Below are positions 3,001-52,961 of a DNA stretch of 64,000 bases, piece after piece. Both the position numbers and the translations under genes were made by a program. The first letter of the stretch is position 1. Each line of letters begins with the position of its first letter. This DNA is from Saprospirales bacterium (GTDB lineage: Bacteria > Bacteroidota > Bacteroidia > Chitinophagales > Saprospiraceae), in the NCBI GenBank assembly GCA_007695145.1, contig REEI01000063.1:1-64000 (forward strand). The letters run 5' to 3'. The notes under the pieces are model-generated. The model had not been told where the DNA came from. It made no database searches and saw only the letters and a program-made list of their open reading frames with translations.

Positions 3001-6000
3001 ATGACGTGGATCCTCAAATCACTTGTGCAGATGATGCCTTCAGAACTACTTCTCAAGATGGTGTTACTGTTGATTGCTTCTACATTGCCTCTGGTGGTGA
3101 ATTCGATCCTGTCTTTACTTTCGACAATTGTGAAATTGAGTCAGTTACTCACGATTATGATCCTGGACTTTCTGCTAGCAATACCACTCTTGATGGAGCT
3201 CAATTCCCTGGCTTCTGTGAAACAACTGTTGTAACATGGACCATTACCGATACTTCCGGTAGAACTGCTACATGTGTCATTGAAATCACAGTAGAGGATA
3301 GCGAAGATCCTATGTTCCTGGATCCTACATTGACCAATACAACTCATACCTGTGGTGATACAGTTAGGTTGGTGAATGTTACCAATAACTGTCACGCAGA
3401 GTTGATCGTGAATCGTCCTACTTTGGATGATACCTGGGACAACTGTTCTGATCCTATGGATATGACAATGACTGAAGATATTTCCGATGCATCCGTTGCT
3501 GCAAATGTCGCTCAGAATCACCCATGGGGTGGAGGAGTGGCTCCTTCTTCAATGGAATTGGATTTCCCTGTAGGTATTACCACGCTAACCTGGGTTGTTT
3601 ACGATCAGGTATGTGATGGCAATGAGCCAAATACGGATACTTGCGTTTTGACTGTTGTCGTAGAGGATACTGAAATACCTGTTATCACCTGTCCTTCACC
3701 ACAGAATATTTACTCTATCTGTGCTGATACCGAAGTACCTAATTACATAGGTTCTGTTCAGGTGATCGACAACTGTCCTACTGATACCATTACACAAGAT
3801 CCTGCACCGGGTACTACTCTTGAAGATGTAGGCGTTGCTTTAGAAGACGGTGCTACCTTCCAGGTTACCATTACTGTTACTCAGCCTACCTACAATGCAA
3901 CCTTCGATGATTTTGTAGTTACCTGTGACTTCACTATTACCCTTGTTGATGAGGATATGTGGACTCCGACTGCAGGATTGCCTCAGGGTTTCCTTTCTAC
4001 TTTGGATACCATTTCTTGTGGTGGTGCATCCGTGGTCATCACGGCTCCTACGGCTACCAAGCCCAATCCTGAGGATTGCAGTGACATTTTGACCGCTTTT
4101 GCGACATTAACATCGAGCAATGATAATTTTGTAGACCTTGGCAATGGACAGTATCAATTAGAAATTGGAACCTACTCTATTAGTTGGGTATACAATGGCG
4201 GTCCTTTGAATCAATTCCAACTAATTAATGTGGTGCCTGACTTCATACCACCGGTTGCTGTTTGTCAGGATATAACTGTAGAGTTGGATACTGATGGCAG
4301 TGCCAGTATTGATGCTGAGACCGATATCGATAATGGAAGTACAGATAATTGTGGTATTTCTGCCTATGCAATCGACATCGATGCTTTCACTTGTGCTGAT
4401 TTGGGTCTGAATACTGTTACCTTAACGGTTACTGATTTAGATGGCAATACAGATGAGTGTGAAGCAAATGTATTGGTAGTTGATAATATCGCTCCGGTTG
4501 CTGAGTGTATTGAATTGATCGTTGTCTCTCTTGATGAGGCTGGTCAAGGGTCAATTACAGTTGATGATGTTGATGCAGGAAGTTCTGATAATTGTACAAT
4601 TACCAATAGGACCTTATCACGCTCTACTTTCGATTGTGATGACCTGTTTTCAGGTGATATTTTGTTTGATACTACTTCAGTTGAGTTCAGTTTAATTGCC
4701 GAAGCTACAGTGTTTGAAGATAATCCTTCATTTAACGTTGCTGCTCCTGCCCTTAATGATCCTGTTGACATAGTTTTAAACATGGAAATTATACCAATTT
4801 CCTTTGCCTGGACCAGCGAATTAAGAATACGAATTACTGATAATAACGACAATGTTGTATTTGAGAGTACAGGACCCCTTCCAGGAACTGCTAATAACAC
4901 TACTCCTGTTTCCTCCCAACTTACTTTCCAAGGGATTGAAGATGTTGAAGGCGATTGGACTTTTGAAGTTAGAACTACATTCGGTGATGCTATAGATGTG
5001 GACTTTGAGCTGAATTTGATTACTTCTTCTATTGCTGGCGGCGTTCCTGTGACTTTGACTGTAACTGATCAAAGCAGTAATAGCAGTGAATGTGTCACTT
5101 TTGTAAATGTTATTGATGAAATTGCTCCTGTCGCCCTTTGTCAGGATGTTACTGTTCAATTGAATCAGGAGGGTTTGGCATCATTGGGTGAAACTTCATC
5201 ACTTCTGTTGGAGTGCGCTGATCTTACACCTACCATTATCTCTGGTGTTCCATATAGCGAGTCCCTTGTGTGCTTTGGAGTTAATAACATCAGTTCTACA
5301 AACGTTACTGATTGGTGTGTTGGCCTTTCCTATGGCAATGGTCAAGAAGCATTGCTTACTATGGTGCCTGAAGAGAGTGGCATTTATGAGTTTAGTATTT
5401 CTGGACAATCTTGGACTTCACTTATCGTTTTTGATGGTTGTCCTACGGAAGGTGCTAATTGTGTTAATGGCATAGCAAACTCCTTGGCTGCTAAATCTAT
5501 TACTGCCCAATTAGAGAAAGGCGTTCAATATTTTATTCTCGTTGATACCTGGCCATCACCTGTAAGTCCATGTTCTGGGACAGGGACTGTCTTGTCTGTT
5601 AATTTACTAGATGGTTTTGGTGACGGTGGTTCGGACGGGTCTCTATTAGATGCTGGAAGCTCTGATAATTGTGGTATAGCTGAATTTATTGAATCTCAGT
5701 CTAACTTTAGTTGTTCAAACGTCGGTGATAATGTTGTAACTTTAACTGTTATTGATGCCTCTGGTAACAGCAGCCAATGTACTTCTGTTGTTACAGTAGA
5801 AGACAACATAGCTCCTGACTTTACTTGTCCTGAGTCTATTGTTACATGTATTTCTATGAACGTGATCAATGCCATTCCTGCTACCGATGCGTGCGGTATC
5901 GCTTCTGCACTATACACAGCTGAAGGTGCTACTCAATTTGCAGGTGCAGGTTATGAAATTGACGAGAAGTTCATGCCTGGTGTTACTACCATCACTTATG

Positions 6001-8999
6001 TGGTAACCGATGTAAACGACAATGTAACTGAGTGTTCATTCACCGTTAATGTAGATGATGACTTGCTACCTGTAGCTGTTTGTCAGTCTAACGTAATTGC
6101 TCCCCTCGGTCCTGATGGTTTGGTTACTTTGCCAGCCACTTTGGTTGACCTCGGTAGCTTTGATCTCGGTTGTGACATTGAAGACGAAGAAGGTATTCAC
6201 ATTACTTTTGAAATTTTCAATGAAGACAATGGAACAGAAGAGCCCGTTGAATTCTTTACTTTCAATTGCGACAATATCGGAGTAAACAATGTCCGAATGA
6301 CTGTAACTGATAACGCATGGAATTCATCTTACTGTGAAACTTTCATTACCATTCAGGACAATACTCCTCCAGTAGCTCTTTGCACTGAAGATCCAATCGA
6401 GATTTATGTAAACAACGGAGAAGAGTTTGTGACTGTTGATGATGTTGATGCTGGAAGTACTGATAATTCTGAGCCATGTTTTGATTTGGATTTTGAAATT
6501 CAGGGGAATGGATTTACCTTAGAAGATGTAGGTACCCAGACTGTTGTGTTACTCGTAACTGATGCAGCCGGTAACTTCTCTACTTGTTCAGCTACTGTTG
6601 AGGTGCTCTCTGGAGTTCCAACTGCAGTTTGTGTTGCTGATCCTATCTCTGTATTCCTTGATGCTGATGGTTTAGCTTCTATCACTCCTGAGGATGTCGA
6701 TGGAGGAAGCTTTGATCCACAAGATGAGGACATTGTTCTTACTGTCAATCCTTCTACATTCACTTGCGCTGATGCAGGTATGAATATCGTAGTTACTTTG
6801 ACTGTTACAGATCCTCACGGGAATAGTGATGATTGCGAAGCAGTTGTTATGGTTATCGATAACTTGATACCTGTTGCAATTTGTCAGGATGTTACCATAG
6901 AATTGGATGCCAATGGTGAGGCTTCTACTTCTGCTGATGCAGTTGACAATGGAAGTTTCGACAATTGTGGAATTGGTTCACTGGTATTGAGCCAGACTGA
7001 TTTCGATTGTGGTGACGTTGGTGACAATCCTGTAACTCTTACTGTTACTGATAATAATGGCAATTCAGCATCTTGTCCTGCTGTTGTAACAGTTGAAGAC
7101 AATATTTCACCAACCTTCGTTTGTGATGATGAGTTGACTCTTGTTCTCAATAATCAGGGTGTTGGTTCCATCGTTCCTGCTGATGTTCTTGAGACTTCAG
7201 TCAGTGACAATTGCGGTATCGATGAGATGATCCTATCTCAATCAGAGTTTGATTGTACCGATCTCGGTTACAACCATGTAACACTTACTGTGTTCGATGT
7301 CAATGGTAACTTCTCTGAGTGTGAATTCTCCTTGTTCGTTACCGTTGCAGGTGGTGTATGTCCTGAAATCGCTCTTATAGCTGAGGACGTTAGCGGAGCT
7401 GAAGGTGATGTTCTATGTATCCCTGTTACAGTAGAAAACTTTGAGAATGTAACTGGTGTTCAGTTCAGCCTTGAAGTTGTTGATCCTGAGGTAGCAGTTG
7501 TTCTTGGAGTTCAGGAACTTGGTCTTACTGATGTAGTTTCTAATGTTATAGGAAATACTGTTACCGTCAGCTGGTTCGAGTCAATTGACAATGCAGTAAC
7601 TCTTAATGATGGAGATGCTATCCTTTGTGTTGAGGTTGAACTGGTCGGTGAAGTGGGTGATATGACCGGAGCGATCATTTCTGATGATCCTGTGGCTATT
7701 GAATTGACTCAAGGTCTACAGGTTGTTCCAATCTCTGTATTCAGCGGTACTGTTACCATCGATGCTGAAGCTGAAATGGCTGATATTGGTGGTTTAATTG
7801 CAACTGAGTATGGATTTGGAATCGAAGGTGTTGATGTCAATGTTACCGGTGATGTAGTTACTACTTTGGAAACTGATGCAGATGGTAACTACGATGCTTC
7901 TGTACTTCTTGGTTCGGATGTGACTCTCACTCCTTATAAGAATGACAATCACTCTCAGGGGGTTAGTACGATGGATCTTATCTCTATTCAGCGTCACCTG
8001 TTGTTGATCCAGGCTTTGGATTCTCCATACAAGTTGATTGCCGCTGATGTGAGCAACGATGGTGTACTATCTACCTTCGACCTGGTTATTCTTCAGGCTT
8101 TGATTATCGGCAATATCACTGAATTCCCGAATAATACCAGCTGGAGATTTATCGATGCTGACTTTAGCTTTACTGACCCAACTAATCCATTTGCGGACGT
8201 TTGGCCTGAGTATATCTCGCTTGTTGATGTAAATGCTGCTTCATTGGATAATGACTTTGTAGCTATCAAGATTGGTGATGTAAATGAGTCTATTGGATTG
8301 CATGGTGCTCAAACCAGAGGAAACTTTAACTTCCTCATTGAAGACAGAGCTTACCAGTTGGGTGATTTAGTGGAGGTTAGCTTTAATGCCAACAACTTTG
8401 TCGGCATGACAGGTTATCAGTTCACTCTTGATTACGACAACAACAACCTTGAGTTTGTTGGTTTCGTGAATGCTGGAAACATTGATAATCTGACTGAAGC
8501 TAATGTCAACGCGATTGAAGAAGGTATAATCAACCTGAACTGGTACAATGCGCTTTCTAACTCGTTGAATGATGGATCTGAAGTATTTACACTCACTTTC
8601 AGAGCCAAGTCTACTATCAATGCTATTAGCGAGCACATCGATGTTAGCCGTAACGGCCTTAATGCCGAAGCTTATACTGTTAATGATGACAGAATGAACC
8701 TGGACATTGAATTCTTCACCAGCGCTGTTGCCGGTAATGAGTTCGTTCTTTACCAAAACATTCCTAACCCGTTCAGCGGTGAAACTGTTATTGGTTTTGA
8801 ATTGCCTTCAGCTTCTTCTGCTACTATAGAAATAATTGATGAAACTGGTAAACTCATTCGTTCAATCAACCAAAACTTCGAACAAGGGTACAATGAAATC
8901 CGTGTTGGAATCAGAGAATTGAATGGAAGTGGAGTTTACTTCTACCGACTGACAACTGCCGATCACTCTGCAGTAAAGAGTATGATACTTGTAGATTAA
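1..8999 (+). CDS. Giant HYR-repeat protein with cohesin-like, dockerin-like and T9SS sorting domains (5' partial)
   Basis: The reading frame is open from the first base, and the residues before the GTG at 27 continue an HYR repeat, so the true start lies upstream. I count 22 HYR-type linkers (pattern V-x-D-x-x-x-P-x-x-x-C), each opening a module of about 80 residues with a DNCG-type motif and a TDxxGN strand. Foreign modules interrupt HYR units at about 745-1250 (unrecognised beta-sandwich), 4650-5030 (resembles a proprotein-convertase P domain) and 5200-5640 (resembles a PPC domain). The C-terminus has a cohesin-like domain (about 7345-7760), a carboxypeptidase-regulatory-like stretch (7780-7940), a dockerin-like pair of Ca-loop segments (7940-8300), a second cohesin-like domain (8320-8720) and a T9SS type A sorting domain (8740-8996, with YQNIPNPF). 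It is inferred to be secreted or surface-anchored through T9SS. An adhesive or structural role is likely but unproven. Confidence 0.9.
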   Translation, partial: NESTYSFEVTVTDMVDPEVTCPVGSPFTFDNTPDSCGYLVPNMALDATADDNCGVVSLVHDWPDADSANTLMGAYFEVGGPYMVTWTATDAEGNTDECTIEITVLDAEDPFFTYCPVDTTVGTSEDGLGLYDCAFTIINDFFDAEADDNCAVVSLTHDFADAPLNTTLEDAVLPEGSNTITWTAEDAAGNTETCTFTITVVDDENPIINDCPADFTVFTNPSSCDVIASWSPPIDFEDNCALASFDVWGVGPDGDTLNIFNTNPGSCLNTLGYVGAFSPGLWAVTQSTGNADFVHDAFSYEVDLSPGAAGLFTDNVVGEVNVPSDYQGVVSLRVAQTSQGVASGSIVNIEVNGSTVHSNLSLIGNATNFVSFNVFPGDVITFDIVVTKTVLAANFANVVIDNFSFLCDNSQANANIGLGTSSIYYQLTDLEGNDTICQFNITLEDNDAPVANGQDVTVQVGAGQTINVPATAFDAGSTDNCGIVEYLVRENPAGPFYSVDCSNVGDTIALQLIVCDAAMNCDTADVSLIVEEIAIPVIAFCPADQVLVNDAGECGAVGNYPTPRVHDGCSADSAMALLNGLASGEMFPVGVTPVTWFHVGKNTGDTVLCQFNVVVNDNEAPVITGCPADIIQPKDAGSCSATVTWTEPTADDNCTAPGDILVIQNHFPGDEFPVGKTTVQYTFIDEAGNSDQCIFDITIEDPEVPFVLCRDYTVELDSCGELVVYANDIRVSAEADCGIALLEIEINGEGFNIDSVVLDCNYLGVNNAIFRATTKAGISNTCEATVTVIDVIAPEVVCHDDITVNISDYDDALCSVTGIPGIGFDYIDCNGLPTAAGEYYSNDSCNVETRFSIEDEDGNIINVGPFTGPVSFDPGAEVFQLGDNVVTVIVTDANGLSDQCDFTVTVVDDVPPIVECAEDITRGTSEDGVLVDCIYIVQGNELDPITVEDNCEVCSVVNDVNGDSTLAGHGFEAGTHVITWTVTDCSDNVSTCQVTLTVVDDVDPQITCADDAFRTTSQDGVTVDCFYIASGGEFDPVFTFDNCEIESVTHDYDPGLSASNTTLDGAQFPGFCETTVVTWTITDTSGRTATCVIEITVEDSEDPMFLDPTLTNTTHTCGDTVRLVNVTNNCHAELIVNRPTLDDTWDNCSDPMDMTMTEDISDASVAANVAQNHPWGGGVAPSSMELDFPVGITTLTWVVYDQVCDGNEPNTDTCVLTVVVEDTEIPVITCPSPQNIYSICADTEVPNYIGSVQVIDNCPTDTITQDPAPGTTLEDVGVALEDGATFQVTITVTQPTYNATFDDFVVTCDFTITLVDEDMWTPTAGLPQGFLSTLDTISCGGASVVITAPTATKPNPEDCSDILTAFATLTSSNDNFVDLGNGQYQLEIGTYSISWVYNGGPLNQFQLINVVPDFIPPVAVCQDITVELDTDGSASIDAETDIDNGSTDNCGISAYAIDIDAFTCADLGLNTVTLTVTDLDGNTDECEANVLVVDNIAPVAECIELIVVSLDEAGQGSITVDDVDAGSSDNCTITNRTLSRSTFDCDDLFSGDILFDTTSVEFSLIAEATVFEDNPSFNVAAPALNDPVDIVLNMEIIPISFAWTSELRIRITDNNDNVVFESTGPLPGTANNTTPVSSQLTFQGIEDVEGDWTFEVRTTFGDAIDVDFELNLITSSIAGGVPVTLTVTDQSSNSSECVTFVNVIDEIAPVALCQDVTVQLNQEGLASLGETSSLLLECADLTPTIISGVPYSESLVCFGVNNISSTNVTDWCVGLSYGNGQEALLTMVPEESGIYEFSISGQSWTSLIVFDGCPTEGANCVNGIANSLAAKSITAQLEKGVQYFILVDTWPSPVSPCSGTGTVLSVNLLDGFGDGGSDGSLLDAGSSDNCGIAEFIESQSNFSCSNVGDNVVTLTVIDASGNSSQCTSVVTVEDNIAPDFTCPESIVTCISMNVINAIPATDACGIASALYTAEGATQFAGAGYEIDEKFMPGVTTITYVVTDVNDNVTECSFTVNVDDDLLPVAVCQSNVIAPLGPDGLVTLPATLVDLGSFDLGCDIEDEEGIHITFEIFNEDNGTEEPVEFFTFNCDNIGVNNVRMTVTDNAWNSSYCETFITIQDNTPPVALCTEDPIEIYVNNGEEFVTVDDVDAGSTDNSEPCFDLDFEIQGNGFTLEDVGTQTVVLLVTDAAGNFSTCSATVEVLSGVPTAVCVADPISVFLDADGLASITPEDVDGGSFDPQDEDIVLTVNPSTFTCADAGMNIVVTLTVTDPHGNSDDCEAVVMVIDNLIPVAICQDVTIELDANGEASTSADAVDNGSFDNCGIGSLVLSQTDFDCGDVGDNPVTLTVTDNNGNSASCPAVVTVEDNISPTFVCDDELTLVLNNQGVGSIVPADVLETSVSDNCGIDEMILSQSEFDCTDLGYNHVTLTVFDVNGNFSECEFSLFVTVAGGVCPEIALIAEDVSGAEGDVLCIPVTVENFENVTGVQFSLEVVDPEVAVVLGVQELGLTDVVSNVIGNTVTVSWFESIDNAVTLNDGDAILCVEVELVGEVGDMTGAIISDDPVAIELTQGLQVVPISVFSGTVTIDAEAEMADIGGLIATEYGFGIEGVDVNVTGDVVTTLETDADGNYDASVLLGSDVTLTPYKNDNHSQGVSTMDLISIQRHLLLIQALDSPYKLIAADVSNDGVLSTFDLVILQALIIGNITEFPNNTSWRFIDADFSFTDPTNPFADVWPEYISLVDVNAASLDNDFVAIKIGDVNESIGLHGAQTRGNFNFLIEDRAYQLGDLVEVSFNANNFVGMTGYQFTLDYDNNNLEFVGFVNAGNIDNLTEANVNAIEEGIINLNWYNALSNSLNDGSEVFTLTFRAKSTINAISEHIDVSRNGLNAEAYTVNDDRMNLDIEFFTSAVAGNEFVLYQNIPNPFSGETVIGFELPSASSATIEIIDETGKLIRSINQNFEQGYNEIRVGIRELNGSGVYFYRLTTADHSAVKSMILVD

Positions 9000-9234: not shown

Positions 9235-12200
9235 ATGAAACAAACTATTACGCTAATTGCATTTCTTTGTTTCGCATTATTAAATTTTCTTCATGCCCAG
9301 AATGTGACTTTTTTCCTTTCTGATGAAGAAATTTCTTGCGATTTAGATGAAATTGTTACTGTTGAATTTTCCGTTGAGAATTGGAATGATGTTGCCGGAG
9401 CTCAGGGTACTATTGTTTTCGATCCTGATGAGCTTCAAGTTGATGAAGTTAGAGGGTTTTTCCCATCCGGACTTTTTGTGCCAAACATCAATAACACTCT
9501 CGGTTTTATCACTTTCAGTTGGTTTGTTCCTGTTGGAGGGAACTTGCCCAATGGAACCGTAGTAATGGAAATTGACTTTGAACTTCAAAACGGTGGGGTA
9601 ATTGCTATACACCCTGTTGAGTTTTCAAATTCTCCCACTCCTCTCGAAGTTACAATTACACCACCAGGCGGTTCACCCTCTATAACTCCAGTTGATACTG
9701 AAGATGGATCTATAACTGTTATAGACGATGTTGAGCCCACTATTAGCTGTCCTGCTGACGTAAATGTTGTCGTGGACTTTGGTGAGACAGGATCCGTGGT
9801 GAATAATATTGCCCCTGATGCTGATGACAACTGTGATGTTGAATCTGTTGTTTATGATATTTCCGGAGCTACTTCGGCTTCAGGTGATGATGATGCCAGC
9901 GGTACTTTTTTTGAATTAGGAGAAAGTACTGTAGAATATACTGCTACTGATTTTGGAAGTAATAGTGCTGCTTGTTCCTTTACCGTTACCATTTCTGAAG
10001 CTGCACCTCCTGTACCCGGAGAAGTTACTCTTAATGTAGTTTCCTCAGAGGCATCTTGTAATGATGAAGGATCTGTTTCAGTGAGTGTTGAAGGGATGGA
10101 AGATGTTGAGACTCTCCATTTTTCAATCTCATTTGATGCTTCTGCCCTAACTTATGCTTCTGCTGTAAATCTTATAGGAGGAAGTCTCGTTGTCGATGAT
10201 TCTGATGCCGGTTCCGGTTTACTGGGTTTTAGCTTTGAAAATACCGATGGTTACAACGAGGATGACGGTACTTCAATTCTTACAATAAATTTTTCCACTG
10301 ATAGCGACCTTGGAGTATTTGATATTGAGTTTGGTGACAGTCCTACTCCTATTGGCGGTACAGATATAGATGATGAGGATTTAACCGTCCTCACGAATAA
10401 TGGTGATTTCACCATATTCGATAATGAAGATCCTTTTATTGAATGCCCTGACAATGTTGTTGTCGATGCTGAGAGTGGCGAGACTACTGCCGTTGTTGAT
10501 GATATTGAACCTGCTGACTTTGGTGACAATTGTGGGATTGATGGTGTCGCTTATTCTTTGAGCGGTGCTACAAGTGGCTCCGGCGATGACGACGCCAGTG
10601 GCACTGAGTTCAATGCAGGTGTTACTACGGTTACCTATACTGCAACTGACTTGGCCGGTAACGAAAGTGAATGTTCATTTACAGTAACCGTCAATGTTGA
10701 AATTCCTGTAAGTGATACCATTACTCTGGTTATTACTACCGGAGTTGCCGATTGTGGAAATGAGGTTAGCCTGGATGTTCAGGTTTTTAATTTCAACGAT
10801 GTAAGAGGTGTTCAGTTCTCAATAAATTGGGATGCTGACAACTTTTCGTTTGTTTCCGGCACTCCTGATTTTCCTGGAGGTTCACCATTGATTAATAGTG
10901 GTGATGATTTCCTGTCTTTCTCAGGATTTGCTGGAAGTGATGTTTCCCTTCCCAATGGACATTCTATCCTCAGCTTTACTTTGGAAGCATTTGGTCCAGA
11001 AGGCATAGCAGATGTTGTCTTTAGTAATTCTCCTCTTGCTGTAGAAATTACCAATTTAGACGGGCCTTTACCACATGCTACACTCAATGGTTCAGTCGAA
11101 ATTTCGGATACCGAAGACCCTGTTATTTCATGCCCTGCCAATGTAGTTGAAGAAGCTCCATTTGGTAGTTCTGGTGTAGCTGTTACCGGTATAGCTCCTA
11201 CTTCCGCTTCTGATGATTGTGGAGTAGGTTCTATTGTTTATTCTCTTTCCGGTGCTACCTCCGGTTCAGGAGATGATGATGCCAGTGGAGAATTTTTTAA
11301 TGTTGGTGTGACTACGGTTACCTACACTGTTACTGATGTCAACGACAATTCTGCAGAATGTTCATTTGAAGTTACTGTAGAAGAGGCTGTAGCGGGTGAT
11401 GATATTATTATTTATGTTCAGGATTATGTCGTAGACTGTAATCTTGATCAGGTAGTTGTTTCTGTAAGACTGGCTAATTTCGAAGACGTGCTTGGTATAC
11501 AGTACTCTGTAAATTGGGATGAAAATGCCTTGGAGTATGTTTCTTCTGAAGTTACTATTCCCAATGGAACTAGTGACATCAACGATGATTTTGTCGATGA
11601 TGGTCAATTAGCCACTTCATGGGCTAGTAATGCTGCTCCAGCCTTGAACAATGGTGATGCTATTTTGGAGATTACTTTCAATGTATTATCCGCTAATGGT
11701 GTCTCTTCTGCTATTGAAATTACCGATATTCCTGTAGATATTGAATTCTCAAATCTCAGTGGCCAACTTCCATATGAAGTAATTAATGGTTCTTTCCTTT
11801 ATCAGGATGATGAAGCTCCAACTGCTGAGTGTCCCGCAGATGTCGTTGCATTTGTTGAAAACTTAGGAGACCCTTCAGTTGAAGTAAATAATATAGAAGT
11901 GAATGCAGATGACAACTGTGAAGTTGAATCTGTTACTTTTGATGTTTCAGGTGCCACTTCAACCAGTGGTGATGATGATGCAAGTGGAACTGAATTTAAC
12001 CTCGGTGTTAGTACCGTAACATATACCGTTTCTGATAACGCCGGGAATACTGCAGAATGCTCATTCTCTGTCGATGTAAAACCTTTACTTTCAGAACTCG
12101 TCACTTTATATGTCAGTGATGCTGACCCCAGTTGTGGCGATATCTTTACCATAGATATTACAGCTGACGATTTTATAGGTATTGGTGGTGTGCAGTTTAC

Positions 12201-15200
12201 TGTAGCCTGGGATGAAAATGTTATCGAATTTATTGATTTTGAAACATTTTTCCCCAATGGCCAGTCCGAAGCTAATGATTCTCTGGTAGTGGATGGGTTG
12301 TTGTTATTTTCTTGGGCCGGAACTGAGGATGTCGTGTTTGATGACGGTACTGTTATTATTACTTTGACCTTCCAGGCAATTGGTGAATTGGGTGAATCTA
12401 CTCCGGTAGAGATTATCGATACACCTCTTGATATCGAATTTTCAAGTCTTGAATTTTTGGTTAATGATATTCCTTATGAGGTTTTCCCGGGAGAGGTTAA
12501 TATTATCGACATCGTCGATCCCATTGCTCTTTGCCAGGATATAACTGTTGAATTGGATGCCAATGGCGAAGCTTCTATTGAAGCCGCTGATGTAGATGGT
12601 GGATCTTCGGATAATTGTGGTGTTATTTCTTTAGCTATTGATGTCAACTCTTTCGATTGTGATGATGTAGGTCAAAATACAGTCGTTTTAACCGTTACTG
12701 ATCCAAGCGGCAATTCTGCAAGTTGCGAAGCTATTGTTTCTGTTGAAGATAATATTTCGCCTACTGCACTTTGCCAGGATGCAATTGTTGAATTAGATGA
12801 AAACGGCGAAGGTAGCATCAGTGTTGATGATATTGACAATGGATCTTTTGATAATTGCGACATTGCATCTTTAGTTCTCAGTGCTACTGATTTCGATTGC
12901 GATGATGTTGGCGATAACCCGGTTACTCTTACTGTAACTGACGTTAACGGTAACGTCTCTAGCTGTGTGGCTAATGTGGATGTTCAGGACAATATTGCTC
13001 CCACTGCACTTTGTCAGGATGCTCTTGTTGAGCTGGATGAGAATGGCGAGGGAAGTATTGGAGCAGATGATATCGATAATGGTTCTTTCGACAACTGTGA
13101 CATTGAATCCCTTGAATTGAGTGTTACTGATTTCGATTGTGATGACATCGGAAGCAACTCAGTTGTTCTTACCGTAACAGATGTCAATGGTAATGTTTCT
13201 TCCTGCGAAGCAAATGTTGAAGTTGAAGATAACCTTGCTCCTATTTTGGTTTGTGTTGACTCTACTGAAATTTTCCTCGATGAAAATGGTGAGGCTGCAC
13301 TTGACCTTGACGATGTAGTTATTAGTGTTAGCGATAACTGTGAAGTTGAACAATTGTTTGCCAACGTAGATCAGTACGATTGCAGTCTTGTAGGTTCTCA
13401 TGACCTCTTTATTACTGCAATAGATCCTTCAGGCAATGAAACTACCTGTGACTTCCACTTACAGGTAATTGATAATATTCCTCCTGTTCTTGTTTGCGTT
13501 GATTCTCTCACCATTGCATTGGATGCCACAGGATTTGCCTCACTGGATCTCGATGATGTTGTAATTGAGGTTTCTGATGCTTGCGGGATAGCAGAATTGT
13601 TTGCGAATGTTGATGAATATGATTGCGATTTGGTAGGTGAGCACGATTTGTTTGTGACAGCTATTGACAGCAACGGAAACGAATCAACTTGTGACTTCCA
13701 CCTTACTGTAGTTGACAACATTGCTCCTGAGCTTTCTTGTGTTGATTCACTTGAAATAAGCCTTGATTCTACCGGCTTCGCTGCACTAGACATCAATGAT
13801 GTCGTGGTTTCCGTTTCTGATGCTTGTGGAATTGCTGAGTTATTTGCAAATGTCGAGGAGTATGATTGTGATTTGGTAGGTGAGCACGACTTGTTTGTGA
13901 CAGCTATTGACAGCAATGGCAACGAGTCAACTTGTGATTTCCACCTTACTGTTGTAGATGATATTGCACCTGTATTGGTGTGTGTTGGCGAAATTGACAT
14001 CTTCCTCAGTGAAGATGGTGCAGCCTCTGTAGATCCTTTGGATCTGGTTGAATCAGTTAGCGATAATTGTGAGGTTGATGCTGTAAATGCAGAGCCAATT
14101 ACTTTTAGTTGCGATGATGTAGGTATCATTATGATAAGCGTGGAAGCATCTGATGTAAACGGAAATGTTTCTTCTTGTCAGGTAACGGCAAACGTACAGG
14201 ATACTATTCCTCCGACTCTCATTTGTAATGATATTACCGTTGAACTTGATGCAAATGGTCAGGTAATCGTTACAGCTGATGATGTAGATGGTGGATCTTT
14301 CGATAATTGCGGTATTGCCTCAGTTGACCCGGAATTTGTTATTCTGACCTGTGATGATATTGGTGAAAATGCTTATGTTGGTGTAGTAACCGATGTAAAT
14401 GGTAATTCTGCTTCATGTGAAGTTACTGTTACCGTTGAAGATAATCTTCCTCCAGTAGCACAGTGTGTTGCCGGATTTGAAGTTGAATTGCTTCCTCCGG
14501 ATTTCACCTTCGTTCTTGAGCCATCTGATATTGATAACGGTAGCTTTGATAATTGTGGTGATGTAACACTTTCTATTGAGCCTACAGAATTGGGTATTGG
14601 TGACGTTGGTTCTGTTGATGTTGTACTTACTGTTACCGATGGCAGTGGAAATACTTCTACTTGTGTTACTACTTTAACTGTTATTGATCTTCCCCCATGT
14701 GAAATCACTTGTCCTGATGATGTAGTTGTCAGCAACGATCCTGGACAATGCGGTGCTTTCATAGATCTTCCCGAGGCCTTCCTTACTGGATTCTGTACAG
14801 CTCCTAATATTGTATTTTTTGAAGGTTTTGATGGTTGTGCCCAGCCAGCCGGCTGGACCAATACATCAACCTCTGCCTCTATAAACACTAACGCTGTAGC
14901 TTGTTTTGCTCCTTTCGGTGTCGGAAATATGTTTAGCTATCAGTGTGTAAATGGTGTACCTTTCGGTGGAGTAGCCGTGCCTCCTACTTTTGCAACTTGT
15001 CAGGCGACTATTGATACCGACCGTGCAGGTGCGGGTGCTATTTATCGTGGAAAGCATTGTCAGCAGTCTCCTACTATAGATCTTTCTGCTGGCGGTGCAC
15101 AAATGACTTTTGACTTCCAGAATAGACCTCTTGGCGCTGGTGGTATTTTTACCGCAGAAGCATGGGATGGTAACTCATGGAATGTTTTATTCCAGACCAA

Positions 15201-18200
15201 TGCCCTGGCGTCGAACTCAGGAGAAACTGTCTCTCTTGCTGCTTATAGCAACAGTGACTTCCAGGTGAGATTCTGTTATGATGACAACGGTGTTTGGGCA
15301 TGGGGATCTGCCGTTGATAATATTGAGATTCTTGCGCTTGGTGGAGGTAGTGATCCTGCAATAGTAAATGACTTTAATGATGGTGGTGCCAATGCTGCAG
15401 GTTTCTATCCAGTAGGTACCACAGTTGTTACTTTTGGTATTCCCAATACCGGCATAGAGTGCTCTACTACAATTACTGTTGAAGATAATGAGCCTCCTGT
15501 ATTCACCAATTGTCAGGATTATGAATTCACCCTTGCCGCCGGTGAGTGTGGAATTATCTTCAATTTTGAATTGGAAGCTACTGACAATTGTCCGGTTTCT
15601 GCTGAAAGCGTAGCGGGTCCTTATTGCGATCCTTGTAATGATGCTACTGGTGGCTCTGCACTGGCTTGTGCTCCATTTGCACAAAATGCGATCATACAAT
15701 TTATTGATTTGCCTAGTGCAGGTATCATGGACTACTTCTGTTTCAATCAGGAAACCTTTGGCAATGCCGAGCCTGCTACTATTCATTTTTATGAGGCTCA
15801 GGCTCCAGGAGTTGTTCCTTACATTGGTGGTGGATTCACTCCATTTTATAGTATAGATTATCAAACAAATGCCGCAGATGATGGCACTTGTGTTTGTGTA
15901 GATTTTCCAGATCCGGTAGATGTTCCTGCCGGTGGTATTTGGGTTGAGGTTTGGACTCCAGGCCTTACTCTTAATAGTCGAGTTGTTCAAACACCACCTT
16001 CTTGCGATGGTAACACTGGTACCGGAATGAATACATTTATCCAGGCTCCTGCCTGCGGATTTGTATCTCCTGTACCTTTCAGTGATATTGGTTTCTTCCT
16101 TGATGCTGGTTTCGCTATTGGATTTAGCGCCGGTGATCTTGTTGGTTCACCCGATCCAAATGCACCAGCTGGTGTAAATGAATTCGAAAGTGGAGACTTC
16201 CTTCCAATTGGGGTTCATTGTTTCCAGTACGTTGTTGAAGATGCAGCTGGAAATGAAGCAGTTTGTGAATTCTGTGTTACGGTTAATGAATTCCCGAACC
16301 CAACTTCAGTTCTTGCATGTAATGACTTCATCAATTTCTCTTTGGATCAAAATTGTGAAGGACTGATCAATGCGGACATGATCCTTGAAGGAGGACCTTA
16401 CAGATGTTACGATGAGTATGAAATTATTCTGGAGACTTCTGGTGGAATGTCTGTTCCTAACCCGATCACTGGTGATTTCATAGGTGAAACCCTAATGGTT
16501 ACCATCGTTGATCCTGTTACAGGTAATTCTTGCTGGGGTAATATCTTTGTTGAAGATAAGATTAAGCCAACTATTGAATGTAGAGATTTGACCATTGTTT
16601 GTGGTGATATTATTCCTGATGTACCTGCTCCGGGTATCGAAGGACCACAATCAATTATTGAGGAAGGGTTGAACGATCAAATTGGAATTCCTAACTTTCC
16701 AGCTTTCATAGACTACCCATTTGACTTTGGGTACTTACCTGCAGATGCTACTGTAGAAAATGTTGGTGTGCGACTTAAATTGTCTCACACATGGGCTGCA
16801 GATTTAAATATTTCTGTGACAGGTCCTGATGGCACCTCTGCTACCGTATTTAATGTTACCGGTGGTACAGGTTGTTTATTTACCCCTGTTACCATTGATG
16901 TTACATTTGACGATAACGGTGCTGCGGTACCAAGTTGTTCTGGCCTTAATCTTGATGGTGACTTGGTTCAACCTTTGACTGGTGCTGCAGTTCCTACCCA
17001 AAATCTTGGAAACTTTGTAGGAACCTTTGCATCAGGCGAGTGGATTGTTAGGATTGAGGATAATGTCTTTTTTGATGATGCTCTTGTTGAGATCGTTGGC
17101 CTAATACTGGATGTGGATGCTGAACAAATCGATCCCGCCGATAACTGTGGTGATGTGTTTGTTGACTTTACCGAATCAATTGCAGACTTTGGTTGCGATG
17201 CTGAATTTGGTCAGGTAATTACGCGTACCTGGACCGCTACTGATCAAAGTGGAAATCAATCCTCATGCGATCAGACCATTAATGTTCTTCGCGTGACAAT
17301 TGACGAATTAGTGGCACCGCCAAACTTTGATGGTATATCTAATCCTCCTCTTAGCTGCGGTGGCAACTGGGATATCAATGGAAACGGTTATCCTGATCCT
17401 GAAGAAACTTCGGGCTTCACCAATAATTGTGATAATATTGCCTTTACTTACGAAGACCTACTATTTGATGTTTGTGGCACTGGATTTAAGATTCTTAGAA
17501 AGTGGATCATCTATGACTGGTGTACTGATGAAATTGGTTACTTTAACCAGCTAATCAAAGTAGAAGATGACGTCGCTCCAGTATTTGATCCCGCTTGCGA
17601 GAATCCTGTGACCGTTAGTACTGATGTGAATCAGTGTGAAAGACTAATGTGGTTTGTACCGATTCCTGAGTTCCTTGAAGATGCTTGTGTAGATGAAGTT
17701 TCTTACACAGTTACTTCAAGTGTTGGTAATGTTACTCAGAATAATCAGGGTGCCTGGATAGTTCAGAATCTTCCTGTAGGAGAGCATACAGTTACTTATG
17801 TTGCTTCTGACGGTTGTGACAATGTTTCAACTTGTAGCTTCACTCTTAATGTTGTAGATAATGTAGCACCTGTTGCATTGTGTGACATTGATACCAGAGT
17901 TTCTCTAGGTAGCGACGGTAATGCTCTCGTTCACTGGACTGCGTTCGACGATGGTTCATATGACAATTGTGGTATTGCTGAAATAGGTCTTCAAAGAGAT
18001 ATAAGCAATCCTGGTGGAAGAGCAGGCTGTGGTAATTCACCAGGCGCTAATGTTTGGGTTCCTCAGCTTAACTTCTGTTGCGATGATTTGGTTAGATCAC
18101 CTATTCTTGTAAATGTTCGCGTTGTTGATATAAGTGGCAATACCAATGTTTGTCAGGTTGAGGTTGATGTAACCGATAAGCTTGCTCCTGTTGTTGCCTG

Positions 18201-20904
18201 CCCGGATCCTATCGAAGTTGACTTGAACTGTCTGTATGATTTCGGTAGTGTAGCATGGGGTGAAGCGATTGGTAACGACAATGCTGCCAATGTTTCCGGT
18301 GATGCTCTTCAGAATATTGAATTATTCGGTGAGCACTTTGGAAGGATTGTAAGAACGCAGAATCCATTCAACGAAACTCCGCGTAACTTTGAAATCAATC
18401 CTACTGGTAATCCAAACAGCTCAACCAGAATTCAAATTAGTGATGGTACTGCAGTTGATAACTGTCCTACTTCAGGAGAGGGATTGAGAGTGTTTGAGAC
18501 ATATCGAATAACTGTTGATCCCCATTGTGGAAATGTTGGAACGAGCGTTTCGCAATTGAATCCTTTCAAAGGAAATCTTGCCATAGAGCGTAATTTCTAT
18601 GTTGTTGATGGACAGGGTAATGGAAATGCCGCGCCCAATGCTGGTTTTGGCAATCCAAATACTGCTACCTGTACCCAGAGAATTTATGTAACTAATAATA
18701 ATCCTTTCCAGGGCTTGACTCGTATGCAGTGGGAAAACAATGCTCTAGGTCAGGCGAATATCATCAGAACTATTAACGAGTGTGGTGGTGACGATCCTGA
18801 TCTTAATGAGATTGGTGAAATTGATAAGGCTAGAATCCTTAACTATATCAACAACCGTCCCGATGCTGCTTGTGCAAATCTATTGGTTGGATATACAGAC
18901 ATGGAGTTCTCGATAGTTAATGATGCTTGTTTCAAAGTATTGAGACAGTGGAAAGTTATTGACTGGTGCCAGCATGATCCTAACTCAGGAGCTGGCGAAT
19001 GGACCTTCATTCAGCAGATCAAAGTTATGGATACTGCCGGTCCTGAATGTGATGGATGTGGTGAGAGAGACTTTGCTATCACTGAGGGTGATGGATGTGA
19101 AGGATTTGTTGATTTTGAAGTTGAATTCATGGATGGATGTACTCCAGATGAGCAATTAGAAATCAGATTCCAGGTAGATGCCTTCAATACCGGTTCTTTT
19201 GATATTGATCAAACCTTTATCGGTGCTGCTAATGCGGTGAATGCTAACAGAGTACTTCCATTTGGCGACCATAGAGTGAGATGGACTGTTTCTGACATGT
19301 GTGGAAATGTAAGCGTATTTGAGTATGAGTTCAGCGTTGTTGATGGCAAAGAGCCTACTCCGGTTTGTATTCACGGTCTTGTGACTGTAATCATGCCAGC
19401 TGCAGATCCTCCATGTATTGAGCTTTCTGCTGATGCTTACGATGCCGGTAGCTTTGACAACTGCACCGAATCTGGTGACCTTATCTTTAGCTTTAGCGCT
19501 GATATCACAGAAACCACTAAAGTTTTCTGCTGCGATGACCTCGGTACTAATATCGTTGAAATTTGGGTAACGGATGAGGCTGGAAATCAAGATTATTGTG
19601 AAACCTATATCCTGATTCAAGATCCAAATGAAGTTTGTGCTGATCAGTCTATCGCTGGTTTGCTTGAAACAGAAGAGAACGAAAGCATAGGAAATGCCGA
19701 TGTTAATCTGACCAGAGATGGTGGACTTTTCCGCACGGAGTCAACTATCGATGATGGATTGTTCTCCTTCAACGCCCTGCCATTGAGCAGTGACTATACG
19801 GTTACTCCTGAAAAGGATATCAATCCTCTTAATGGTGTTACTACCTATGACATCGCTTTGATTCAGAGACATATCCTGGGTATAGAGTACCTCGATAGTC
19901 CTTATAAGCTAATCGCGGCTGATGTTAGAGCAGATGGAGTTATTAACGTCCTTGACGTTGCTGACCTCAGAGCTTTGATCCTTGGTAAGAGAGATGGTTT
20001 TGTTAATAATACCAGCTGGAAGTTTGTATCTTCTGACCAGATTTTCCCTGCAGGTATGGTGCAGCCACCTCATCCGTCTGAAATTGAAACTCTTCGAAAC
20101 TATGATGATTTCATGGCTTCCGTTAGAGATGCTAATTTCATAGGTGTGAAGATTGGTGATGTCAACAATACCAACCAGCCTAATTCACTTGTTGGTGCTG
20201 AGAGCAGAAGCTTTGGTAACGAAGTAAATATGCTTATTGACAGAGTTGATTTCAATGCCGGTGATCTTGTAGAAGTAGCTTTTAGAGCTTCTGACTTCAA
20301 TGAAATTCTCGGATATCAGTTTACGCTGAACTTCGATAATAGCATGATTGAGTTCAATGGTTTTGAAGCTGGTCTTCTTGAAGGTATTTCTGAAAACAAC
20401 TTCGGCTTCCATATGCTTGATAACGGCATGATCACTACCTCCTGGAATACCTCCAAGCACGTTAGCTTGTCTGCTGACGAGGTATTGTTTACCCTTGAAT
20501 TTATCGCCAGACAAAGTGGTTCTACTTCCAACTTGTTTAGCGTAACTTCTGCGGTAACCGCTTCAGAGGCTTACAGAGCCGGAGAAGGCATTATCGATGT
20601 TAACCTGCTTGTTGTTGATGAAAGAGGTGCTTTTGACTCTGATGTATTTGCATTGTATCAAAATACACCTAACCCATTCAATCAGCATACTACTATTGGA
20701 TTTGTTGTTCCTGAATCTGTTTCAGGTACTTTGACTATATATGATGTTACCGGAAAGGTGGTTAAGGTTATTGAGGATGACTTCACAAGGGGTTATAATC
20801 AAGTTACTCTGACCAGAGGTGACCTTCCTGCAAATGGTGTTTATTACTACCAGTTAGAAGCAGGAAATCATAATGCTACTAAGAAAATGATGTTGATTGA
20901 ATAA
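9235..20904 (+). CDS. Giant secreted protein: five cohesin-HYR pairs, long HYR array, dockerin-like segment, T9SS sorting domain
   Basis: Complete, 3889 residues. A signal peptide (about 1-21, ending LHA) is followed by five cohesin-like domains starting near residues 23, 262, 493, 721 and 953. Each is followed by an HYR module, giving a repeat of about 230 residues. A long HYR array (about 1093-3466) is interrupted by a cleaved-adhesin/MAM-like jelly roll (1861-2037), an unrecognised module (2129-2299) and a P-domain-like module (2471-2629). The C-terminus has a regulatory-like fold plus dockerin-like loops (3468-3646; second loop DVRADGVINVLD), a sixth cohesin-like domain (3659-3799) and a T9SS type A sorting domain (3806-3889, YQNTPNPF). 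It is a paralogue of the preceding gene, sharing the whole C-terminal block. Export through Sec then T9SS is inferred. Carrying both cohesin-like and dockerin-like parts suggests self-assembly, but that is a hypothesis. Confidence 0.93.
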   Translation: MKQTITLIAFLCFALLNFLHAQNVTFFLSDEEISCDLDEIVTVEFSVENWNDVAGAQGTIVFDPDELQVDEVRGFFPSGLFVPNINNTLGFITFSWFVPVGGNLPNGTVVMEIDFELQNGGVIAIHPVEFSNSPTPLEVTITPPGGSPSITPVDTEDGSITVIDDVEPTISCPADVNVVVDFGETGSVVNNIAPDADDNCDVESVVYDISGATSASGDDDASGTFFELGESTVEYTATDFGSNSAACSFTVTISEAAPPVPGEVTLNVVSSEASCNDEGSVSVSVEGMEDVETLHFSISFDASALTYASAVNLIGGSLVVDDSDAGSGLLGFSFENTDGYNEDDGTSILTINFSTDSDLGVFDIEFGDSPTPIGGTDIDDEDLTVLTNNGDFTIFDNEDPFIECPDNVVVDAESGETTAVVDDIEPADFGDNCGIDGVAYSLSGATSGSGDDDASGTEFNAGVTTVTYTATDLAGNESECSFTVTVNVEIPVSDTITLVITTGVADCGNEVSLDVQVFNFNDVRGVQFSINWDADNFSFVSGTPDFPGGSPLINSGDDFLSFSGFAGSDVSLPNGHSILSFTLEAFGPEGIADVVFSNSPLAVEITNLDGPLPHATLNGSVEISDTEDPVISCPANVVEEAPFGSSGVAVTGIAPTSASDDCGVGSIVYSLSGATSGSGDDDASGEFFNVGVTTVTYTVTDVNDNSAECSFEVTVEEAVAGDDIIIYVQDYVVDCNLDQVVVSVRLANFEDVLGIQYSVNWDENALEYVSSEVTIPNGTSDINDDFVDDGQLATSWASNAAPALNNGDAILEITFNVLSANGVSSAIEITDIPVDIEFSNLSGQLPYEVINGSFLYQDDEAPTAECPADVVAFVENLGDPSVEVNNIEVNADDNCEVESVTFDVSGATSTSGDDDASGTEFNLGVSTVTYTVSDNAGNTAECSFSVDVKPLLSELVTLYVSDADPSCGDIFTIDITADDFIGIGGVQFTVAWDENVIEFIDFETFFPNGQSEANDSLVVDGLLLFSWAGTEDVVFDDGTVIITLTFQAIGELGESTPVEIIDTPLDIEFSSLEFLVNDIPYEVFPGEVNIIDIVDPIALCQDITVELDANGEASIEAADVDGGSSDNCGVISLAIDVNSFDCDDVGQNTVVLTVTDPSGNSASCEAIVSVEDNISPTALCQDAIVELDENGEGSISVDDIDNGSFDNCDIASLVLSATDFDCDDVGDNPVTLTVTDVNGNVSSCVANVDVQDNIAPTALCQDALVELDENGEGSIGADDIDNGSFDNCDIESLELSVTDFDCDDIGSNSVVLTVTDVNGNVSSCEANVEVEDNLAPILVCVDSTEIFLDENGEAALDLDDVVISVSDNCEVEQLFANVDQYDCSLVGSHDLFITAIDPSGNETTCDFHLQVIDNIPPVLVCVDSLTIALDATGFASLDLDDVVIEVSDACGIAELFANVDEYDCDLVGEHDLFVTAIDSNGNESTCDFHLTVVDNIAPELSCVDSLEISLDSTGFAALDINDVVVSVSDACGIAELFANVEEYDCDLVGEHDLFVTAIDSNGNESTCDFHLTVVDDIAPVLVCVGEIDIFLSEDGAASVDPLDLVESVSDNCEVDAVNAEPITFSCDDVGIIMISVEASDVNGNVSSCQVTANVQDTIPPTLICNDITVELDANGQVIVTADDVDGGSFDNCGIASVDPEFVILTCDDIGENAYVGVVTDVNGNSASCEVTVTVEDNLPPVAQCVAGFEVELLPPDFTFVLEPSDIDNGSFDNCGDVTLSIEPTELGIGDVGSVDVVLTVTDGSGNTSTCVTTLTVIDLPPCEITCPDDVVVSNDPGQCGAFIDLPEAFLTGFCTAPNIVFFEGFDGCAQPAGWTNTSTSASINTNAVACFAPFGVGNMFSYQCVNGVPFGGVAVPPTFATCQATIDTDRAGAGAIYRGKHCQQSPTIDLSAGGAQMTFDFQNRPLGAGGIFTAEAWDGNSWNVLFQTNALASNSGETVSLAAYSNSDFQVRFCYDDNGVWAWGSAVDNIEILALGGGSDPAIVNDFNDGGANAAGFYPVGTTVVTFGIPNTGIECSTTITVEDNEPPVFTNCQDYEFTLAAGECGIIFNFELEATDNCPVSAESVAGPYCDPCNDATGGSALACAPFAQNAIIQFIDLPSAGIMDYFCFNQETFGNAEPATIHFYEAQAPGVVPYIGGGFTPFYSIDYQTNAADDGTCVCVDFPDPVDVPAGGIWVEVWTPGLTLNSRVVQTPPSCDGNTGTGMNTFIQAPACGFVSPVPFSDIGFFLDAGFAIGFSAGDLVGSPDPNAPAGVNEFESGDFLPIGVHCFQYVVEDAAGNEAVCEFCVTVNEFPNPTSVLACNDFINFSLDQNCEGLINADMILEGGPYRCYDEYEIILETSGGMSVPNPITGDFIGETLMVTIVDPVTGNSCWGNIFVEDKIKPTIECRDLTIVCGDIIPDVPAPGIEGPQSIIEEGLNDQIGIPNFPAFIDYPFDFGYLPADATVENVGVRLKLSHTWAADLNISVTGPDGTSATVFNVTGGTGCLFTPVTIDVTFDDNGAAVPSCSGLNLDGDLVQPLTGAAVPTQNLGNFVGTFASGEWIVRIEDNVFFDDALVEIVGLILDVDAEQIDPADNCGDVFVDFTESIADFGCDAEFGQVITRTWTATDQSGNQSSCDQTINVLRVTIDELVAPPNFDGISNPPLSCGGNWDINGNGYPDPEETSGFTNNCDNIAFTYEDLLFDVCGTGFKILRKWIIYDWCTDEIGYFNQLIKVEDDVAPVFDPACENPVTVSTDVNQCERLMWFVPIPEFLEDACVDEVSYTVTSSVGNVTQNNQGAWIVQNLPVGEHTVTYVASDGCDNVSTCSFTLNVVDNVAPVALCDIDTRVSLGSDGNALVHWTAFDDGSYDNCGIAEIGLQRDISNPGGRAGCGNSPGANVWVPQLNFCCDDLVRSPILVNVRVVDISGNTNVCQVEVDVTDKLAPVVACPDPIEVDLNCLYDFGSVAWGEAIGNDNAANVSGDALQNIELFGEHFGRIVRTQNPFNETPRNFEINPTGNPNSSTRIQISDGTAVDNCPTSGEGLRVFETYRITVDPHCGNVGTSVSQLNPFKGNLAIERNFYVVDGQGNGNAAPNAGFGNPNTATCTQRIYVTNNNPFQGLTRMQWENNALGQANIIRTINECGGDDPDLNEIGEIDKARILNYINNRPDAACANLLVGYTDMEFSIVNDACFKVLRQWKVIDWCQHDPNSGAGEWTFIQQIKVMDTAGPECDGCGERDFAITEGDGCEGFVDFEVEFMDGCTPDEQLEIRFQVDAFNTGSFDIDQTFIGAANAVNANRVLPFGDHRVRWTVSDMCGNVSVFEYEFSVVDGKEPTPVCIHGLVTVIMPAADPPCIELSADAYDAGSFDNCTESGDLIFSFSADITETTKVFCCDDLGTNIVEIWVTDEAGNQDYCETYILIQDPNEVCADQSIAGLLETEENESIGNADVNLTRDGGLFRTESTIDDGLFSFNALPLSSDYTVTPEKDINPLNGVTTYDIALIQRHILGIEYLDSPYKLIAADVRADGVINVLDVADLRALILGKRDGFVNNTSWKFVSSDQIFPAGMVQPPHPSEIETLRNYDDFMASVRDANFIGVKIGDVNNTNQPNSLVGAESRSFGNEVNMLIDRVDFNAGDLVEVAFRASDFNEILGYQFTLNFDNSMIEFNGFEAGLLEGISENNFGFHMLDNGMITTSWNTSKHVSLSADEVLFTLEFIARQSGSTSNLFSVTSAVTASEAYRAGEGIIDVNLLVVDERGAFDSDVFALYQNTPNPFNQHTTIGFVVPESVSGTLTIYDVTGKVVKVIEDDFTRGYNQVTLTRGDLPANGVYYYQLEAGNHNATKKMMLIE
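13483..13968 (+). repeat. Tandem 243-bp HYR repeat pair inside the second giant gene
   Basis: Two adjacent HYR modules of 81 codons are nearly identical. The core 13621-13716 against 13864-13959 encodes the same 32 residues with nine nucleotide differences, all at third codon positions. Confidence 0.9.
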
Positions 20905-50100: not shown

Positions 50101-50123
50101 TTCTTTGAAAAAATTCCACGAAA

Positions 50124-51584: not shown

Positions 51585-51703
51585 AGATAGGTTGGTTTAT
51601 TATTATCAATTTCAGGTTGGTAAACAGATGCAGCACGGTCGCCGTGAAGATTGGTTGGAACTTTTTCTGGTGACCGGCTGCCTTCTGTTTTAGTTGAATG
51701 CAA

Positions 51704-52960: not shown

Positions 52961-52961
52961 T

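Follow-up and report, generated by a model that had tools for sequence, protein, structure and literature searches.

What does a protein hold together when it carries both cohesins and a dockerin on one chain? The question is raised by P1, which is encoded in a 64,000-nucleotide stretch of a Saprospirales genome (assembly GCA_007695145.1, contig REEI01000063.1, positions 1 to 64,000; hereafter the window) and has five cohesins near its N-terminus and a dockerin, a sixth cohesin and a type IX secretion system (T9SS) sorting domain at its C-terminus. We give roughly even chances to P1 being a T9SS-exported, non-cellulosomal surface protein akin to the adaptor scaffoldins, whose N-terminal cohesins recruit dockerin proteins. 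The five N-terminal cohesins, with HYR modules between them, would then be receptor sites at which the cell could retain its own secreted proteins that bear dockerin tails, among them proteases and HYR adhesins, at the surface. The dockerin of a tail is most likely packed in cis on the cohesin next to it, which is of a separate type (C-type), and a dockerin that has no such neighbour, or has been released from it, may dock in trans onto the N-type cohesins represented by the N-terminal five.

P1 is a single unbroken open reading frame (ORF) with an ATG start (9235-20904, forward strand; 3889 amino acids). ORF calling and Pfam give the order signal peptide (assigned by eye), five cohesin-HYR units, a HYR array, a mixed middle region and a tail made up of a CnaB-like module, a dockerin, a segment here called X, a cohesin and a T9SS type A sorting domain. 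Pfam recognises 12 HYR stretches and six stretches of Cohesin PF00963 (91.6 bits; cut-off 24.1), and the sorting domain is supported by Por_Secre_tail (32.6 bits; cut-off 27) and TIGR04183 (38.5 bits; cut-off 23). Cohesins and a dockerin on one secreted chain, the mark of an adaptor scaffoldin, are thus both present if the signal peptide is accepted. An orthologue in a relative of the same genus (genome G201, locus L184) has the same five cohesins and the tail, with 58% identity over 3611 aligned residues, and a dN/dS of about 0.15 across the pair, at a dS near or at saturation, suggests that P1 is maintained. Upstream of P1 lies the paralogue P2 (3-8999, forward strand; truncated by the left edge of the window), which had been noticed before and has the same tail, preceded immediately by one N-type cohesin (7371-7760); the P2-P1 gene order is also present in G201. 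Since P1 has the most cohesins of any protein found in the source genome, it is the best scaffold candidate there.

Cohesins 1 to 5 begin at residues 21, 259, 490, 719 and 952, that is, 238, 231, 229 and 233 residues apart, in agreement with the spacing of about 230 residues that the sequence-only reading had given for cohesins alternating with HYR modules. All of these features are on the forward strand. Cohesin 1 (9295-9726, residues 21-164) and cohesin 5 (12088-12510, residues 952-1092) were placed by profile searches, cohesins 2 (10009-10422, residues 259-396) and 3 (10702-11109, residues 490-625) have no single PF00963 score, and cohesin 4 (11389-11808, residues 719-858) was modelled and has a type I cohesin fold. 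HYR modules 1, 2 and 4 were located by Pfam at 9727-9999, 10423-10692 and 11809-12078 with approximate boundaries, and module 3 at 11110-11376 (best stretch 625-715). A profile derived from the five cohesins themselves scores them at 164-198 bits, values that are high by construction; the independent PF00963 passes its cut-off as a single match in each of cohesins 1, 4 and 5 and in the C-terminal cohesin. The N-terminal cohesin profile matches solved cohesins with a best E-value of 7.1e-5; unrelated chains of primase and FtsZ also appear, at 0.15-0.63. A P-x-x-[IV]-E-like motif occurs in cohesins 1, 3, 4 and 5, not in cohesin 2, and also in the one-cohesin and multi-cohesin proteins described below.

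Folds were modelled for two segments, Coh4-HYR4-Coh5 and the C-terminal tail, cohesins 1-3 lying outside both. The first model (16 alignment rows) has a pLDDT of 79.9 and a pTM of 0.54; by ten-residue blocks the mean pLDDT is about 92 in cohesin 4 and far lower in cohesin 5, which is poorly modelled. Cohesin 4 superposes on 5nrm_A with a VIA Z-score of 17.8 (1.7 Å, 128 residues aligned), and all 50 entries listed in the fold search with the first 141 model residues are cohesins or cohesin-containing constructs.

The tail, again on the forward strand, opens with a CnaB/CarboxypepD_reg-like module (19648-19818; PF13620 at 23.9 bits, below the cut-off of 32.3) and continues with the dockerin (19813-19989; loops DINPLNGVTTYD and DVRADGVINVLD), the X segment (19993-20172; SWKF...FIGVKIGDVN), which is conserved along with the dockerin (the two together spanning residues 3528-3646), the C-type cohesin (20215-20613, residues about 3661-3793), with a strand-3 Gln and an ASEAY motif, and the sorting domain (20641-20901), found by Pfam, TIGR04183 and fold search. 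Its AlphaFold2 model, based on an 80-row alignment, has a pLDDT of 92.3 and a pTM of 0.79, with a low-confidence linker at tail residues 191-193. Residues 192-330 match the type I cohesin 4dh2_C (VIA Z 13.4, 2.8 Å, 129 aligned) and a non-cellulosomal cohesin of Archaeoglobus (Z 12.0), and the tail cohesin profile matches solved cohesins with a best E-value of 1.8e-6; two de novo designed Ig proteins appear among these cohesins at about 1e-4. The sixth cohesin and the sorting domain expected at the C-terminus are therefore confirmed, and the possibility that the cohesins are generic Ig-like domains can be set aside because the modelled ones match solved cohesins well above other rows.

Against PF00404 (cut-off 22.9) the dockerin scores 19.1 bits in the Pfam scan of P1 and 27.3 bits in the genome search, and its family profile matches solved dockerins at 5.6e-8. 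The fold-search rows span tail residues 195-330 and 337-425 and thus barely cover the dockerin part, so that the lack of dockerins among them carries no weight; this block is modelled with a pLDDT of 95-98 and has helices at tail residues 73-83, 92-98 and 108-118, which would fit the duplicated loop-helix fold expected of a dockerin. The pTM of the tail exceeds the ceiling of 0.58-0.66 calculated for independently placed CnaB-dockerin-X and cohesin-T9SS blocks on the assumption of a 12-20 Å error between them. From this pTM a fixed arrangement is predicted, in which the two blocks would pack against each other within the chain.

As judged from alignments, the cohesin adjoining the dockerin is a class of its own with a conserved face, and cohesins 1-5 are members of another, to which the cohesins of the multi-cohesin SprB/CHU_C proteins described below also belong. 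The motif [AS]E.Y, which we used in this strict form only (looser patterns placed 51 cohesins in a 'both' class), is present in 110 of the 133 scored cohesins that lie within 150 residues after a dockerin and in none of 165 other cohesins; in the window the C-terminal cohesin has it and none of cohesins 1-5 does. A strand-3 Gln, by contrast, is shared by the two classes (80/80 C-type, 128/158 N-type), as is a later Glu (78/80 and 103/141), so one type of dockerin could suit both. In the tail cohesin the outward residues of strands 3 and 6 have a mean entropy of 0.95 bits, a value equalled or undercut in 4 of 20000 permutations; this set was fixed before its entropies were known, although after the list of invariant columns had been seen, and the parity of strand 6 was taken from the profile alignment to solved cohesins. 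The opposite sheet has 2.94 bits, for a set chosen after the entropies had been seen and omitting strands 4, 5 and 8. In clostridial pairs the dockerin binds the 8-3-6-5 face of the cohesin.

The tail is not peculiar to P1. From its sequence relatives the CnaB-dockerin-X-cohesin-T9SS tail is a genome-wide cassette, common in Saprospiraceae, and the idea of P1 as a single unusual protein is thereby ruled out. In the 3.70 Mb of the source genome there are 33 matches to PF00404 (E up to 10), 12 to PF00963 and 42 to the tail profile; the last include 30 dockerin-bearing frames: 27 full-length tails, both window copies included, two frames that end after dockerin-X and one truncated where its contig ends. 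Of the 27 full-length tails, 21 have a scored cohesin downstream of the dockerin. The dockerin profile scores in 29 frames, 20 of them with a downstream cohesin; the twenty-first cohesin-scored tail (L038:3515-9016) has a dockerin too diverged for that profile. The two frames ending after dockerin-X encode a Trypsin_2 protein (L023:4074-5927) and a HYR protein (L032:1816-5382), both lacking a cohesin and a T9SS domain; for the former, the three downstream frames, read by eye, show no continuation. Between 22 tails of the source genome (22 of 28 alignment rows, six having been left out), mean pairwise identity is 0.55 for the dockerin, the best-kept tail domain, and 0.20 for the cohesin. Other genomes contain at least 590 candidate stretches among the matches listed, of which at least 550 encode relatives. 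The best 78 of these loci are all stop-free, about 380-437 residues long and end within 3 residues of the frame end; 57 of the 78 are labelled Saprospiraceae and the rest other or unspecific Bacteroidota, including two Cyclobacteriaceae. The cultured species Lewinella cohaerens is one of those with the tail (L118 and L120).

The passengers of the cassette are varied. Pfam searches of 16 dockerin proteins of the source genome found an M12B metalloprotease, a trypsin-like protease, a DUF285 array and many proteins with HYR, and no glycoside hydrolase (GH) catalytic family in any of the 16; one of them, L033, has CHB_HEX_C_1 and Fn3_assoc as accessory domains. No GH family was found at E<=1e-3 in P1, P2 and 20 further window ORFs either (22 of a list of 46, many of them overlapping frames), as had been expected from the sequence. 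A cellulosome is accordingly not supported. Across the genome there are 122 matches to Por_Secre_tail and 39 to CHU_C.

Several further observations concern the cassette. Two neighbouring frames of the source genome (L036:6887-8155 and L036:13801-15072) are identical over the last 330 tail residues and differ in the preceding stretches, which points to recent copying or homogenisation of the cassette; genomes G182 and G173 each contain several tail dockerins with equal scores (five at 113.9 bits in G182), also suggesting recent copies. In L039:3654-7649 the passenger of a dockerin tail is the DUF285 array (602 bits). Dockerins also occur in other settings: L022:3868-5127, which was excluded from the tail counts, has one of a different type, placed some 270 residues short of the C-terminus in an 843-residue protein with a T9SS domain, and L021 (contig C65), a 1601-residue frame open at the contig start, combines a cohesin stretch with a dockerin that is closer to the canonical pattern (35.8 bits) and lies 11 residues before the frame ends, with no T9SS match listed for that frame.

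Candidate docks other than P1 are found beside the tails. Each of the 20 regions of relatives fetched for tandem cohesins has a dockerin-less gene with 2-12 cohesins, and all five multi-cohesin proteins searched with Pfam, four from relatives and one (L131) from the source genome, carry SprB repeats and CHU_C. The latter (L131:2931-6032) has three cohesins and directly follows a dockerin gene (L034/L131). In 9 of the 20 regions a dockerin-tail gene lies within 1.3 kb on the same strand; six of these show, on one strand, a tail gene, a one-cohesin gene (260-303 amino acids, with a T9SS domain) and the multi-cohesin gene, and in the other three the tail gene is downstream (two) or directly upstream (one). 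One further region has a tail fragment upstream, and three had less than 1.1 kb of upstream sequence covered. Viewed from the tail side, a cohesin gene without a dockerin follows within 600 bp at 6 of 67 loci (those of the 78 with 1.2 kb of downstream sequence, the other 11 being shorter); at five of these loci the multi-cohesin gene comes next, complete or cut, and the sixth, L066, shows only its start, with one cohesin. Across 198 genomes of the order the N-type cohesin profile matches in 40 and the dockerin profile in 40, with both in 39, the cohesin only in one (G010), the dockerin only in one (G075) and neither in 157; 3 of 37 family members have neither. As a separate observation, two CHU_C matches lie in adjacent frames of one strand at G000:C141:14236-22050 (1151 and 2513 amino acids); the longer frame has an N-type cohesin near its start, and frames of about 2500 residues with a similar cohesin occur in G200 and G201.

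Two modes of binding have to be considered. The class motif, the conserved face and the pTM of the tail suggest packing in cis, while the cohesin-less dockerin-X proteins, the scaffold genes adjoining tail genes and the strong conservation of the dockerin relative to the rest of the tail suggest docking in trans. Both can hold if the dockerin is capped by its cis cohesin, and either would presumably depend on calcium.

Several findings weigh against recruitment of dockerin proteins by P1. A canonical dockerin calcium loop reads D1-x-N3-x-D5-G6-x-I8-x3-D12; loop 1 of P1 has Leu at position 5 and Gly at position 7, so that the position-5 ligand is lost, and loop 2 has Arg at position 3. The double calcium loop seen earlier is recognisable as a dockerin, with D1 and D12 retained in both loops, but each loop lacks one canonical ligand. 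Cohesin 2 has neither the strand-3 Gln nor the later Glu. The class motif is missing from 23 of the 133 scored tail cohesins, the L180 tail has an N-type-like cohesin after its dockerin, and 6 of the 27 full-length tails of the source genome have, in place of a scored cohesin, merely a stretch of matching length. At 61 of the 67 tail loci no cohesin gene is directly downstream, and in 7 of the 20 tandem-cohesin regions no dockerin gene was found in the stretch covered; in one of the seven (L182) a dockerin match lies about 3 kb past the gene, outside that stretch. The co-occurrence across genomes is confounded, tail cohesins being themselves matched by the cohesin profile. Finally, conservation of the dockerin may serve its own fold with X and not a partner.

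A broader form of the recruitment proposal, in which Saprospiraceae possess a surface scaffold of cohesins and dockerins that resembles the cellulosome but apparently does not serve cellulose digestion, is possible, and we advance it tentatively. The scaffold would be exported by the T9SS; of the roughly 30 dockerin-tailed proteins of this genome, most would be self-capped by their cis cohesin until an N-type cohesin is met. With similar caution, the two cohesin classes might be read as cap and socket of such a system, with P1 or the multi-cohesin SprB/CHU_C proteins adjoining tail genes as scaffolds.

Among the alternatives, a clasp that stays closed survives best, although we think it unlikely: the dockerin and C-type cohesin of each tail would pair permanently, as a stiff stalk between passenger and T9SS signal, and trans docking would not occur. 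Such a stalk would account for the restriction of the AExY motif to cohesins with a dockerin in cis, for the conserved face and the pTM of the tail, and for the preponderance of full-length tails among the dockerin frames (27/30, with 21 scored cohesins). It sits less well with the two dockerin-X proteins that have no cohesin to close upon, with the multi-cohesin genes that often adjoin tail genes, and with a cohesin that is the least conserved domain of the tail when the dockerin is the most conserved. The corollary that the N-terminal cohesins are plain adhesive or spacer modules appears unlikely to the same degree.

The sequence-only reading had gone further and proposed a self-assembling fibre: P1 molecules would be joined into surface polymers, each inserting its tail dockerin into N-terminal cohesins of the next, and P2 could be a second subunit. 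We regard this as rather doubtful. Cohesins and dockerin do share one chain, the Gln and Glu signature is common to N-type and C-type cohesins, and the P2-P1 order is retained in G201, the one relative of the genus in which it was seen. Yet about 25 other proteins of the source genome bear the same tail, leaving the P1 dockerin without visible privilege for P1 cohesins; the cohesin closest to the dockerin is its cis neighbour, which belongs to a separate class; and the tail pTM implies that packing is predicted within the tail. Because the tail is a generic cassette, with 30 dockerin frames, the combination of dockerin and cohesins on one chain does not mark P1 as a self-polymer. What stands of the proposal is that docking between molecules is plausible, given the tail genes in 9 of 20 regions and the two cohesin-less dockerin proteins; what does not is the singling out of P1, since insertion of its dockerin into another P1 would be one of many possible pairings, possible but not favoured.

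It is improbable that the cohesin and dockerin folds persist solely as structural modules of large T9SS adhesins and do not bind one another: the degenerate calcium loops, the low identity between tail cohesins and the six tails without a scored one would fit, but the outward residues on one cohesin face are nearly invariant, and the P1 dockerin is 90% identical to that of the G201 orthologue, the highest among the segments compared, against 58% for the whole protein.

P1 as a recruiting scaffold has partial counterparts elsewhere. For Candidatus Stygibacter (Cloacimonadota), dockerin peptidases were proposed alongside a large scaffoldin-like protein that combines tandem cohesins with a domain for attachment at its C-terminus (PMC8542988), so the idea of an anchored scaffoldin that carries proteases has a precedent. 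That system belongs to another phylum, its cohesins alternate with CBM2/CBM3 and dockerin glycoside hydrolases are present, and the relevant passages of the paper mention neither a dockerin-X-cohesin cassette nor a second cohesin class (PMC8542988). The adaptor scaffoldins of complex clostridial cellulosomes, for example those of Acetivibrio and Pseudobacteroides, resemble P1 in that a single polypeptide bears both the cohesins and the dockerin (PMC11557425). The modelled cohesins of P1 likewise have the type I cohesin fold, whereas its T9SS export, HYR spacers and CnaB-like module before the dockerin, and the lack of a GH family in the 16 dockerin proteins of the source genome searched, set it apart. 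The same account gives Paenibacillus guangzhouensis 28 'monovalent adaptors', each with one dockerin-cohesin pair, and surface-anchored scaffoldins as possible docks (PMC11557425). This is the logic of the tails and CHU_C multi-cohesin proteins here, but in a Gram-positive organism with SLH anchors and often GH cargo in place of the T9SS, proteases and adhesins (PMC11557425).

According to PMC9012536, ANME archaea, which are not cellulolytic, have proteins with one dockerin and up to five cohesins, as in P1, although they are archaeal and have S-layer domains and cargo such as ABC-transporter binding proteins. Amy4 of Ruminococcus bromii also has an adjacent cohesin and dockerin on a secreted chain (GH13 CBM26 CBM26 Coh Doc), but it is a starch enzyme with the order Coh-Doc, where P1 has Doc-X-Coh followed by the T9SS domain (PMC9112005). 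For a T9SS cellulose degrader, one paper states that cohesins and dockerins were not found, 'consistent with' other Bacteroidetes genomes (PMC5831590). In the five SprB-type CHU_C proteins noted above, the N-termini are cohesin arrays, and P1 for its part has HYR modules and a sorting domain of type A. Searches of open-access literature returned no account of the Saprospiraceae cassette, of the two classes of cohesin or of the gene cluster; an earlier survey, Peer et al. (2009; PMC3035643), may include proteins of this kind.

The remaining features are briefly noted. P1 has a HYR array after the cohesin block (12511-14934, forward strand; Pfam, approximate boundaries) and a P-domain-like module (16753-17064, forward strand; PF01483 at 22.5 bits, cut-off 21). 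An OmpL47 'barrel' identity, considered because of NF047446 matches, was rejected, as these overlie HYR stretches and we regard them as relatives of HYR. Elsewhere the window encodes a subtilase (Peptidase_S8) with a T9SS type A sorting domain (28466-30118, reverse strand) and a cell-wall and division cluster (46731-55215, forward strand) with a MraW-type methylase, a penicillin-binding protein, a Mur ligase, and MraY-like and MurG-like transferases.

Most known cohesin-dockerin scaffolds come from anaerobes that degrade polysaccharides. If the recruitment proposal is true, it would provide new cohesin-dockerin pairs for protein engineering, and it would give a large Bacteroidota family a way to keep many secreted proteins at the cell surface, including proteins that have no sorting signal of their own, such as the trypsin-like L023.

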